Made by a program: the position numbers and the translations under genes
IMG/VR virus record: IMGVR_UViG_3300027963_000327
Coordinates: 1-24,300 of that record
Source: a virus
Direction: 5' to 3' (one strand)
Length of the DNA: 24,300 nucleotides
Notes under the pieces: model-generated
What the model was told of the DNA's origin: nothing
Database searches by the model: none
The model's input: the letters and a program-made list of their open reading frames with translations, nothing else
Shown here: positions 1 to 5,832 of the stretch, piece after piece
Numbering within the stretch: position 1 is the stretch's first letter
How the letters are laid out: each line of letters begins with the position of its first letter

Positions 1-2592
1 AACATTAACTACATCTCTAACAAAGATATTGAAAACTATGATAGAGGAAATGAAATTTCTTCGCTAGTTTTATTGCAAAATTTATTACAACAAGGTATTG
101 ATCTCAAACAAACAAATACAACGGTAGCAAGTACTATTAATCAACAAGTAGAGACTATAGCTAGTGGAATACTTGGTAACAATTACATAATTCCATGCGA
201 TGTTGCTATTTCTGAAGTTAATTCTGGAACTACTAGTACAACTTCAACCACGACAAGTACTACTACCAACACAACATCAACTACCACTACTACAACGACG
301 GCTGCGCCCACAACCACAACCACTACTACAACAACCGTCGCTCCCGGCACAATAACTGGGTTTAATATGAGTGGTACTGGATGGAACACTGGTAATGGTT
401 ATAATCTTTGTCAAGCTGGTAGTTATGATGGAGTAAATTATTATGTGCAAACAAGTGGTCCCGACACCAGAATAATGTTTAGAGAAACATATCAAGAACA
501 ATCTTATACATTTACTTATTGGTACATTAACGCAAATCAGTCCATGCCCGGAACGTCTTTATTTACTGCGCCACCAAGTTTCACATTAGAAAGTAATTCA
601 TCTACACCACCGCTTAATTGGGGCTATAATACCGTTTTGATTCCTATAAATTGTGGGTCGATAACAACTACCACAACGACAACTACCACCACTACCACAA
701 CAACCGCCGCACCCACTACTACTACAACTACAACCACCACAACGGAAGCTCCAACCACCACCACCGCTGCACCTACTACTACTACTACTACTACTACTAC
801 TACTACTACTACCACTACTGTGGCACCAGTGTTCCGCGCAATTCCAACGCTTACTAGTAACACTTCAGACGGAACTGCGGAAGCGAACACGGTCGGCGGT
901 GGTGCCGCATGGAACCTGTTTGACAACAGTAGCACTGAATATTATACTGCGCGCAACGGTTCGGACACACCAAAGAGGTATTTTCAATATACATTTGCTG
1001 GCGGCGCAAAGTCTCTGATTGGTGGCTACACCATGACTGCGGTTGCAGATAGATTCGCTAGTATTTTTAGTTGGGAATTATCGGGAAGCAATGATGGCTC
1101 AAACTTCACGCTGCTTGATACACAGTTAGCCTATACAACAAGATACTCAAGCGGTGGACAGCAATTAACATTTACGCTATCAACACCAGCAAATTACTCC
1201 ACCTATCGATGGACTCTTACGCCGGATGGAACAAACGATTCGTTTGCTGGACTCAGGGGGGTACAGCTTTTAGCAGCAGAGTCAACTACAACTACTACCA
1301 CAACGACAACTACCACGCCTGCTCCAACTACTACCACAACGACAACTACCACGCCTGCTCCAACTACTACCACAACGACAACTACCACGCCTGCTCCAAC
1401 TACTACCACAACGACAACTACCACGACAACAACTACCACACAGTCTCCGGGAATTATAATGCAAGAAAATGTTTCTAGCACTCCAAGAGCATTAGTTGGT
1501 GGTGGAACAAATTATGTTGCTTCTTTCATTAATTCTGATTATAGAGCATACTTTAGCAATATAGTAAACCAGACTAATGAAGCACTTGTAAACGGATCAT
1601 TGCCTTATGACAATATTCATGGAAAATACATAAACAATACAAATAGTTATGGATATCCTTGGTACTATAACTTTATAGTTCCCACAATAATAACGAAATA
1701 CAGACTGTGGAATGCCTTTAAGAGCGGCGTTGCATTTACTGATCCGAGCAATGGCACCACAAGATACTCTGATTACGGAAATCAAACTCCTCAAGGATGG
1801 AAACTGCAAGGATCATTAGATGGAACTTCTTGGTCTGATGTGGACGTAAGGACTAGCCAAGGTAGACTCCCGTATGCAACAAGTGATAATCCAAGCACTA
1901 GCGCATATAATGAATATACAATAAGTAGCCCAGCAGCGTATAAGGTTTATCGTTTCTTAGTGACTGCTGGAGGCAGAAACGGATATAATTGCAATAAGTA
2001 TGGAGACTGTTATTATGATTGGCAGCTTGGACAACTCCAGTTGTGGGGTTATGAAAATCCTTCCACTTCATGCGGTCTTCATGGATACTATGGAAGTCTA
2101 CCAACAGCAAAATACATAACCAGTTCTGGGGCTTTGAGTAGCATATCTACAACTGGTGGCAATTACTATTCGTTTAGTTATGCTTTCTACAACTCTGGAT
2201 TCCTTGGTCATGACAGTAGAACAAGCAGAACTTGGGACCATTATTACAGAATTAATTCAACACCAGTCGGACAATACAAAACAGAATACATTGGATTTGA
2301 TTTTCCAATAGTACTGAGTGGGTACAACATTCGCTGTGTCGGCTCTCCCTATATGGAAATGGTAACAAGTTGGGATATTTATGGAAGTAATGATTTAAGT
2401 TCATACACTTTACTGGACAGTAGAACTGGGCAAAGTACTAGTTCAATATCAACAACATTCAGTTTTAGCAATTCTACCGGATACAAATACTTTAAATTTG
2501 TGTTCAAAGATGGAACTCAAAATTGTGGAAAGAATGGTTGCTCTTGGTCAGCAAATATAGCCGACATTGTTTTACGAGGAACATTAATATAA
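1..2592 (+). CDS. Thr-rich multidomain tail fibre/adhesin with discoidin-like domains (5' partial)
   Basis: The frame is open from base 1 to the stop at 2590-2592, so the gene begins before the window; a TTG at 73 is internal and not a credible start. The 863 visible residues alternate folded domains with Thr-rich linkers. After a short N-terminal segment comes linker 1 (bases 229-345), a roughly 100-residue domain, linker 2 (664-828), a discoidin (F5/8 type C)-like domain (832-1275) with the signature W-E-L-S-G-S-N-D-G, linker 3 (1285-1440), and two further discoidin-like domains to the end. Such folds usually bind glycans, so host-surface recognition from the tail is the likely role (inference). 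The last two domains are paralogous to the gene at 2602, and the first discoidin domain to the end of the gene at 5032. Linker DNA carries a (ACT)12 run and a 36-bp tandem repeat. Fibre or adhesin is a solid class call; the structural position is unknown. Confidence 0.8.
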   Translation, partial: NINYISNKDIENYDRGNEISSLVLLQNLLQQGIDLKQTNTTVASTINQQVETIASGILGNNYIIPCDVAISEVNSGTTSTTSTTTSTTTNTTSTTTTTTTAAPTTTTTTTTTVAPGTITGFNMSGTGWNTGNGYNLCQAGSYDGVNYYVQTSGPDTRIMFRETYQEQSYTFTYWYINANQSMPGTSLFTAPPSFTLESNSSTPPLNWGYNTVLIPINCGSITTTTTTTTTTTTTTAAPTTTTTTTTTTEAPTTTTAAPTTTTTTTTTTTTTTTVAPVFRAIPTLTSNTSDGTAEANTVGGGAAWNLFDNSSTEYYTARNGSDTPKRYFQYTFAGGAKSLIGGYTMTAVADRFASIFSWELSGSNDGSNFTLLDTQLAYTTRYSSGGQQLTFTLSTPANYSTYRWTLTPDGTNDSFAGLRGVQLLAAESTTTTTTTTTTTPAPTTTTTTTTTPAPTTTTTTTTTPAPTTTTTTTTTTTTTTQSPGIIMQENVSSTPRALVGGGTNYVASFINSDYRAYFSNIVNQTNEALVNGSLPYDNIHGKYINNTNSYGYPWYYNFIVPTIITKYRLWNAFKSGVAFTDPSNGTTRYSDYGNQTPQGWKLQGSLDGTSWSDVDVRTSQGRLPYATSDNPSTSAYNEYTISSPAAYKVYRFLVTAGGRNGYNCNKYGDCYYDWQLGQLQLWGYENPSTSCGLHGYYGSLPTAKYITSSGALSSISTTGGNYYSFSYAFYNSGFLGHDSRTSRTWDHYYRINSTPVGQYKTEYIGFDFPIVLSGYNIRCVGSPYMEMVTSWDIYGSNDLSSYTLLDSRTGQSTSSISTTFSFSNSTGYKYFKFVFKDGTQNCGKNGCSWSANIADIVLRGTLI
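664..828 (+). repeat. Thr-codon linker with perfect (ACT)12 microsatellite
   Basis: This segment codes for threonine runs broken by Ala-Ala-Pro, Glu-Ala-Pro, Ala-Ala-Pro and Val-Ala-Pro. Most of it mixes all four Thr codons, but bases 775-810 are twelve uninterrupted ACT triplets, in frame as twelve threonines. Slippage here would change linker length by whole residues without breaking the frame. Confidence 0.9.
1291..1425 (+). repeat. 36-bp perfect in-frame tandem repeat, 3.75 copies
   Basis: Units start at 1291, 1327, 1363 and 1399. The first three are identical over 36 bp, and the fourth matches for 27 bp before diverging. Each unit codes for nine threonines followed by Pro-Ala-Pro. Exact identity, including synonymous positions, indicates recent duplication or active homogenisation. 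Confidence 0.93.
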
Positions 2593-2601
2593 AGGTGAAT
2601 T

Positions 2602-5016: not shown

Positions 5017-5031
5017 TAGAGGAAACAAGCT

Positions 5032-5832
5032 ATGGCATCTATTCAAATAACATCCACTAATTATAACGGTCAAACAGCACAGGTTACTTTCTACTCTGTG
5101 ACCGCACCAACTACGGCTGTTAATTTAGGCCCACAAACACTTCCTTATTCAAGAAGTGGCGACGATGTTTATGGAAGCTATGAGCTAAACTTTACTGCTT
5201 ATAATAAAGTATGTGTTGTTACTTTAAATGGTACAACCACTACAACAACAACCGCAGTCCCGACAACAACCATCACCACAACTACGGCTGTTCCAACGAC
5301 CACTACAACTACCACAACTGCCGCCCCAACAACTAGTACCACAACAACTACTACTACGACCACAACAACAACGGCTGCTCCGAATGAAGTTTTCAGAGCG
5401 ATCCCAACGCTGACCAGCAACACAAGCAATGGAACAGCAGAGGCAAACACAGTCGGCGGCGGTGCTGTGTGGAACTTGTTTGACGGTAGCAGTAGCGAAT
5501 ACAACACTGCGCGCAACGGTTCGGACACACCAAAGCGTTATTTTCAGTATTCGTTCGCCGGGGGCTTGAAATCTTACATTGGCGGCTACACCTTCACCGG
5601 AGCGGGCAGCAGAGACTACAGCATCGGCGGCTGGGAACTATCCGGCAGCAATGACGGAACGAACTTCACGCTCCTTGACACGCAAGTTGTGTCGTGGCAG
5701 AGCGGCGGGCAAACAAAGTCTTTCACTCTGGCATCGCCAGCAAATTATTCGACATACCGTTGGACTCTCACGCCTGACGGCACAAACGACTCGTATGCTG
5801 GTTTAAGTGCAGTGCAGCTTACTGCGGTATAA
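5032..5832 (+). CDS. Thr-linker adhesin with C-terminal discoidin-like domain
   Basis: The protein has 266 residues. Residues 1-67 form a small beta-rich domain (pattern LGPQTLPY...YGSYELNFTAYNKVCVVTL) that probably attaches or packs against the virion. Residues 68-117 are a Thr linker with AVP, AVP, AAP and AAP breaks (bases 5233-5382). Residues 121-266 are a discoidin-like domain closely similar to the one at 832-1275 in the first fibre gene. The domain's DNA is strikingly GC-rich (about 57-65% in bases 5581-5700) compared with about 38% in the next gene, which suggests recent import of the domain. The ribosome-binding site AGAGGAAA precedes the ATG. A carbohydrate-binding, virion-decorating or fibre role is inferred. 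Confidence 0.7.
   Translation: MASIQITSTNYNGQTAQVTFYSVTAPTTAVNLGPQTLPYSRSGDDVYGSYELNFTAYNKVCVVTLNGTTTTTTTAVPTTTITTTTAVPTTTTTTTTAAPTTSTTTTTTTTTTTTAAPNEVFRAIPTLTSNTSNGTAEANTVGGGAVWNLFDGSSSEYNTARNGSDTPKRYFQYSFAGGLKSYIGGYTFTGAGSRDYSIGGWELSGSNDGTNFTLLDTQVVSWQSGGQTKSFTLASPANYSTYRWTLTPDGTNDSYAGLSAVQLTAV
5233..5382 (+). repeat. Thr-codon linker with Ala/Val-Pro breaks
   Basis: This low-complexity ACN-codon stretch encodes runs of Thr interrupted by Ala-Val-Pro and Ala-Ala-Pro. It uses mixed Thr codons and lacks the perfect tandem units of the linker at 1285-1440. Confidence 0.88.
5392..5829 (+). repeat. Second copy of the discoidin-like domain coding sequence
   Basis: This dispersed repeat of bases 832-1275 encodes a highly similar domain. 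A 30-base block (5506-5535 and 946-975) is identical in both copies. The copy here is much more GC-rich than the copy in the first fibre gene and than all neighbouring genes. Confidence 0.85.

Follow-up and report, generated by a model that had tools for sequence, protein, structure and literature searches.

The stretch analyzed here (hereafter, the window) is a 24.3-kb fragment, positions 1 to 24,300 of the IMG/VR virus record IMGVR_UViG_3300027963_000327; the contigs with which it was compared are likewise all fragments. It derives from a tailed phage distant from cultured phages, and its UvsX/RecA-like recombinase gave a single weak match among 50,697 phage records. The first 7.6 kb hold four fibre-like open reading frames (ORFs; FibA to FibD), with genes for a sulfotransferase-like protein (ST) and a 2-oxoglutarate (2OG)/Fe(II) oxygenase (OX) placed between FibB and FibC. 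We focus on this ST-OX pair and on a short Lys-centered motif, the K-loop motif, in the fibres encoded upstream of it:

1..2592, + strand: FibA, fibre protein; ORF with its 5′ end cut by the contig; tail-protein PHROG 17517, E 7e-18; family alignment A5
1990..2010, + strand: K-loop motif CNKYGDC of FibA, proposed modification site; aligns to the CxKxGC sites of relatives, with Lys and Gly invariant
2524..2541, + strand: K-loop motif CGKNGC of FibA, from motif scan and alignment A5
2602..3909, + strand: FibB, fibre protein with two F5/8C-like beta-sandwich domains and no Thr linker, from ORF and model
3274..3291, + strand: K-loop motif CNKGGC of FibB domain 1; K227 and G229 invariant in 13 family members
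3838..3855, + strand: K-loop motif CDKSSC of FibB domain 2; K415 invariant in 13 family members
3906..4439, + strand: ST, sulfotransferase-like protein of 177 aa, from ORF, motifs and profile comparison
4429..5016, + strand: OX, 2OG/Fe(II) oxygenase of 195 aa with a predicted peptidyl-hydroxylase fold, from ORF, catalytic residues and model

FibB overlaps ST by 4 bases and ST overlaps OX by 11, so the three genes are probably translationally coupled. The ST-OX pair is conserved in ~20 contigs (11-381 kb), mostly with a fibre-like gene directly upstream, at 61-93% (OX) and 44-87% (ST) identity to the window. In most of these relatives, ST lies directly behind the fibre-like gene and overlaps OX, while the order of fibre, ST and OX differs in L026, L027 and L067. 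Hence, the linkage of a conserved, overlapping ST-OX pair to a fibre gene is directly observed. Further, a second ST-like gene is present in L020-L024 and a third sulfotransferase in L023 and L027, that of L023 matching Pfam Sulfotransfer_4 (E 6e-25), and more distant OX homologues in L154 and L160 (33-35% identity) sit directly behind Sulfotransfer_2 proteins. That OX is found time and again with different sulfotransferases hints at a single pathway comprising both hydroxylation and sulfation.

Comparison of the cassette-adjacent fibres revealed a hexapeptide, C-[GNDSR]-K-x-[GS]-C, usually with Tyr or Trp a few residues on, which the adjacent fibre bears in nearly all copies of the cassette. 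This K-loop motif occurs in at least four fibre families without mutual sequence resemblance. Specifically, carriers include discoidin proteins of the FibA/FibB type (the window, L009, L017, L019 and L020-L024), the MAIITYDGFENYSSFDAVKSYLNYTN family, which is unrelated to FibA/FibB (L010-L012, L018, L028, L062 and L063), a 579-aa protein of L014-L016, a protein encoded between ST and OX in L026, and L067. The strict motif matched 30 times per 106,157 aa in cassette loci and not once in four control sets (89,147, 34,882, 343,317 and 128,146 residues, ~595,000 in all), and exchanging the Lys of the pattern for any of ten other residues left 1 match in the cassette loci; a few of the 30 strict matches fall in a small Cys-rich non-fibre protein (L012 and L029). 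A whole-contig DNA scan of 21 contigs returned 65 matches, 35 of them counted just upstream of the cassette. The codons at the motif vary from site to site, which favors selection on the peptide over a mobile DNA segment. All sites share a Lys with Gly (in a few, Ser) two residues on, and they fall within loops of beta-sandwich proteins; in the FibB model, each domain has its site in a loop between its final two strands, and both loops are modelled at low confidence (predicted local distance difference test, pLDDT, <50 at 219-236 and 409-419).

Several natural experiments connect the motif to the enzymes. In the MAIITYDGFEN fibre family, the motif is present in 6/6 copies that abut the cassette versus 0/10 others (Fisher p 1.2e-4); L063 carries three tandem copies from this family, and only the one abutting ST has the motif. 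Across 13 FibA/FibB-family sequences with a mean identity of 44%, neither the Lys and Gly at site 1 nor the Lys at site 2 ever changes, and sites that lose the Cys usually retain Lys-x-Gly, as in L020 and L022, which lost the motif Cys yet keep the invariant Lys/Gly. Between L026 and its 75%-identical relative L027, CDKVGC is exchanged for GKGG. A FibA/FibB homologue on the 144-kb contig L098, which has neither ST nor OX, shows no CxKxGC at the corresponding sites. Finally, L080 and L029 retain no more of OX than a 3′ remnant (44 and 17 residues, respectively); the fibre, ST and the remainder of OX have been exchanged, the replacement fibres lack the K-loop motif, and in L029 the OX remnant is followed by sequence 81% identical to that behind OX in L012. 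This joint loss, seen directly in the contigs, indicates that fibre, ST and OX were swapped as a unit.

The original prediction, made from the letters of the window, had placed a sulfotransferase-like gene and a 2OG/Fe(II) oxygenase within the fibre gene run, and both are present. ST carries the motifs of sulfotransferases that use 3′-phosphoadenosine-5′-phosphosulfate (PAPS), namely TRSGS near the N-terminus and VRNPxxRF; in alignment A2, R18-S19-G20 (the 5′-phosphosulfate-binding, or 5′-PSB, loop) and R71-x-P73-x-x-R76-F77 (the 3′-phosphate-binding, or 3′-PB, motif) are invariant. A Pfam search matched no family, and the match to PDB sulfotransferase 3rnl was weak (E 0.45 only). The placement of ST in the sulfotransferase family therefore rests on profile comparison with the Sulfotransfer_2-type neighbors of other OX genes (hhalign E 1.8e-5, probability 78%). 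No match to ST was found among cultured phages. In OX, the iron triad H113-x-D115...H164 and the 2OG-binding R175 are invariant in 28 homologues. Its predicted model (pLDDT 94) has a double-stranded beta-helix fold and matches PHD2, bacterial and algal prolyl 4-hydroxylases (P4H), PBCV-1 vCPH, and the PKHD-type proteins 3dkq and PiuC (Foldseek E to 2e-7; Z up to 17.6 over 170 residues), the best matches being peptide- or PKHD-type hydroxylases. We can thus confidently assign OX, by its modelled fold, to the P4H/PHD/PKHD-type peptidyl hydroxylases, which supports a protein substrate and leaves the target residue unspecified; the invariant Lys of the fibre loops is what marks OX as a putative lysyl hydroxylase. 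A PDB sequence search with OX returned nothing, a pattern search of bacterial genomes gave 68 matches with 0 confirmed, and the sole match among cultured phages was cyanophage S-SCSM1 (26-30% identity), where the fibres adjoining the OX homologues lack the K-loop motif. As a separate observation, this phage (L289; MK867354.2, 210680-215144) carries four tandem 2OG-oxygenase genes directly before its tail-fibre genes, and dozens of Arg stand in NFR-A/V-P and RQPR-like repeats of its short tail fibre SSCSM1_245, which may be an oxygenase substrate of a separate kind.

Taken together, we lean slightly toward ST and OX forming a fibre-modification cassette that targets the Cys-x-Lys-x-Gly-Cys loops of the fibres encoded upstream, through Lys hydroxylation followed by sulfation. 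The motif correlates strongly with the enzymes, and it is from this correlation among sequences that we infer its role as substrate, the residue modified, the order of the steps and their purpose. OX would recognize exposed Cys-x-Lys-x-Gly-Cys loops on fibres encoded just upstream, most probably hydroxylating the invariant Lys, and ST would then move sulfate from PAPS to the new hydroxyl, to the Lys amine, or to an adjacent aromatic or neighboring residue. The Cys pair probably shuts the loop as a disulfide and would be dispensable, leaving Lys-x-Gly as the likely core. The product would be a modified, probably anionic spot on the fibre that could tune receptor binding or protect the tip.

Cassettes with a single enzyme may extend this pattern. 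In the ST-only contigs L308-L327, where OX is absent, the fibre directly before ST bears L-x-K-[DNES]-G-x-Y (17/120 Lys vs 7/1259 Lys, p 7e-14; partial homology links several of the fibres), a motif that most other proteins encoded at these loci lack, and ST itself may read Lys-x-Gly there. OX-only cassettes adjoin Lys-poor fibre tips with GKSG, GKAG or DKSG, and OX may read Lys-x-Gly too. For fibres beside diverged OX genes, the Lys context also differed (39/341 vs 75/1816 Lys, p 5e-7), a test we do not rely on because the core cassette and weak sites were pooled into it. Both extensions are weaker than the core result. Hence, only tentatively do we entertain the broadest form of the proposal: phages would exchange fibres together with their modifying enzymes, a hydroxylase and at least one sulfotransferase, and these enzymes would place O-sulfo-hydroxylysine (or N-sulfo-lysine) at a CxKxGC sequon of the receptor-binding tips. 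Such a two-step, sequon-directed modification is not known from any virus, and related one-enzyme versions (OX only, or ST only and reading Lys-x-Gly-x-Tyr) would occur in other phages. Side observations from such loci include L160 (3588-6558), where a Sulfotransfer_2 gene and an OX homologue adjoin a fibre tip in which Cys are extremely clustered (CHECCNCGCCQTCC...CCGKGGQCC), and the regular company of diverged OX genes with small cupin-like and fibre-chaperone-like proteins, behind Gly-rich fibre tips (L068-L073, L099-L104, L119 and L159). Separately, L012 (5959-8022) encodes a C1-peptidase-like protein with an apparent intein, which its homologue in L029 (8233-9159) lacks.

The remaining features of the window comprise the Thr linkers, the two downstream fibres and two glycosyltransferases:

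229..345, + strand: Thr linker 1 of FibA, from ORF translation
664..828, + strand: Thr linker 2 of FibA, containing a (CTA)n tract at 773-819
1285..1449, + strand: Thr linker 3 of FibA, containing an exact 36-bp tandem array at 1289-1425
5032..5832, + strand: FibC, ORF for a Thr-linker fibre with one F5/8C-like domain and no K-loop motif; Thr run at ~5233-5382
5846..7564, + strand: FibD, fibre with PKD-like and laminin-G-like domains and no K-loop motif; short Thr run at ~6062-6090
8925-9674: glycosyltransferase, GT92-like
23343-24203: glycosyltransferase, GT2-like

Behind the fibre region lie genes for ribonucleotide reductase, dUTPase, PhoH, a recombinase, a helicase and a primase, read from their translations, with UvsX alone searched. 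FibA combines its three Thr/Ala-Pro linkers with F5/8C-like domains and has its two K-loop motifs in the C-terminal part. The predicted Thr runs in three fibre proteins were confirmed in FibA, FibC and, in shorter form, FibD, broken by AAP, VAP, EAP or PAP, and the two predicted glycosyltransferases exist as well. The runs use mixed ACN codons; the array in linker 3 holds 3.8 copies of its unit at 100% identity, and the linkers have partly grown by recent tandem duplication. A 10-Thr codon pattern matched the coding strand 22 times and the reversed control not once, and since an IMG/VR scan for T6-AAP-T6 matched at least 120 stretches, such linkers are common in environmental phages.

It was these linkers that the original prediction took as the substrate: OX would hydroxylate Pro, and the Thr/Pro linkers in FibA, FibC and FibD would receive sugars from the glycosyltransferases and sulfate from ST. 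The enzymes do share a gene run with the linker fibres, and the fold of OX is nearest to prolyl hydroxylases. However, among 50 Thr-linker contigs (18-274 kb), OX occurs in 1 (G012, already known as a relative; 49/50 lack it), ST in 2 (48/50 lack it) and GT2 in 3. Conversely, 17/22 contigs of the OX-similarity set (the window plus 21 fetched, a few with partial OX only) are free of 8-Thr runs over the whole record. L080 still has four Thr runs (of 17, 8, 8 and 10), having lost ST and all of OX save its 44-residue remnant, and FibB, the gene in the window that is joined to ST and bears K-loop motifs, has no linker and was overlooked in that prediction. A broader Thr/Pro-linker measure was uninformative (11/17 loci with the cassette vs 4/9 without). 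Thr linkers and ST/OX thus assort independently, and the enzymes are no rarer where such linker fibres are absent, the outcome that the original prediction had set as its refutation; the linkers are probably ordinary spacers. The glycosyltransferases drop out of the system also, with GT2 in 5/33 contigs; an apparent association of GT2 with Thr linkers in these first 33 contigs was gone in the 50-contig set. The sole arrangement that fits a linker-glycan reading is that of L208/L287 (659-2842), where a Thr-linker fibre is followed directly by ST and GT2, without OX, the GT2 being 68% identical to the window glycosyltransferase at 23343-24203. We therefore regard modification of the linkers as very improbable. 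What survives of the idea that the phage decorates its own fibres is the action of ST and OX on fibres, supported by their strict linkage to fibre genes and the shared short motif.

Alternatively, the substrates of ST and OX may be glycans of the host surface, lipids or small molecules, the two genes being carried along with those for fibres; their action could, for instance, prevent superinfection, and the K-loop would be a receptor-binding feature that co-varies with the same host group. Small-molecule substrates are frequent among sulfotransferases and 2OG oxygenases, fibre regions are hotspots for moron genes, and a host-linked cause would also yield co-occurrence of motif and cassette. 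Such a cause ill explains why the motif occurs only in the ST-abutting copy of three tandem paralogues, why the ORFs overlap and OX has a peptidyl-hydroxylase fold, and why unrelated fibre families converge on one hexapeptide, and we consider it unlikely. Less likely still is that the CxKxGC loop serves as a structural or ligand-binding element (a disulfide staple or metal site), associated with ST-OX through hitchhiking of fibre-gene modules among related phages. Cys pairs often staple loops, and exchange of the fibre genes and ST-OX as a unit would produce strong linkage; yet the invariant residue, by direct observation, is the Lys rather than the Cys, the motif appears in unrelated folds with differing codons, and Lys replacement is not tolerated in the data.

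Several observations weigh against sequential Lys hydroxylation and sulfation of K-loops as well. The solved folds nearest OX are mostly prolyl, not lysyl, hydroxylases, and where diverged OX genes lack ST, the neighboring fibres offer only Lys-Ser/Gly/Ala-Gly sites, which are weaker. The ST-only fibres, with their distinct Lys-x-Gly-x-Tyr, blur which enzyme reads Lys-x-Gly. One L020 fibre keeps its site only in Cys-free form, the L027 site is weaker and Cys-free, and the second C-terminal site in L098 is still NKSS. Further, several of the compared contigs are near-duplicates, none of the sequences derives from a cultured host, and linkage together with shared contig ancestry could inflate the association between motif and cassette.

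If the proposed fibre-modification cassette is real, some tailed phages exceed the 20 standard residues at their receptor-binding tips, using self-encoded enzymes that make a new side chain, and a fibre moves with its modifying enzymes as one unit. A defined substrate sequence would become available for those phage oxygenases and sulfotransferases that are still orphans and frequently labelled auxiliary metabolic genes, and fibre sequence alone would be an incomplete basis for host-range prediction.

A literature search, in which subscription journals were thinly covered, found no description of a phage fibre-modification system of the ST-OX kind. Mycobacteriophage virions are glycosylated by phage-encoded glycosyltransferases (Freeman et al. 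2023, Cell Host Microbe 31:1216, as cited in PMC12619734), and there, too, phage enzymes act on the phage's own virion proteins; as far as the account in PMC12619734 extends, that system differs in placing sugar on capsid and tail-tube C-termini and involves no oxygenase, sulfotransferase or short lysine motif. ST resembles the PAPS-dependent sulfotransferases (Pfam Sulfotransfer_1/2/3/4) in its 5′-PSB-like and 3′-PB-like motifs and its Sulfotransfer_2-type profile similarity, but it has only 177 aa and matches none of these families. With PHD2, bacterial P4H and the PKHD-type proteins (3dkq and PiuC), OX shares the double-stranded beta-helix, the HxD...H triad and the 2OG-binding Arg at 10-19% identity; unlike OX, these oxygenases have no link to fibres or ST, and their substrates are Pro in HIF or EF-Tu, or unassigned. 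Finally, Mimivirus L230, a collagen lysyl hydroxylase/glucosyltransferase, is likewise a viral 2OG oxygenase that acts on lysine near Gly in the virus's own proteins, but it does so on collagen Gly-X-Y repeats, without a sulfotransferase and in a eukaryotic giant virus, whereas the cassette described herein would act on short loops of phage fibres.

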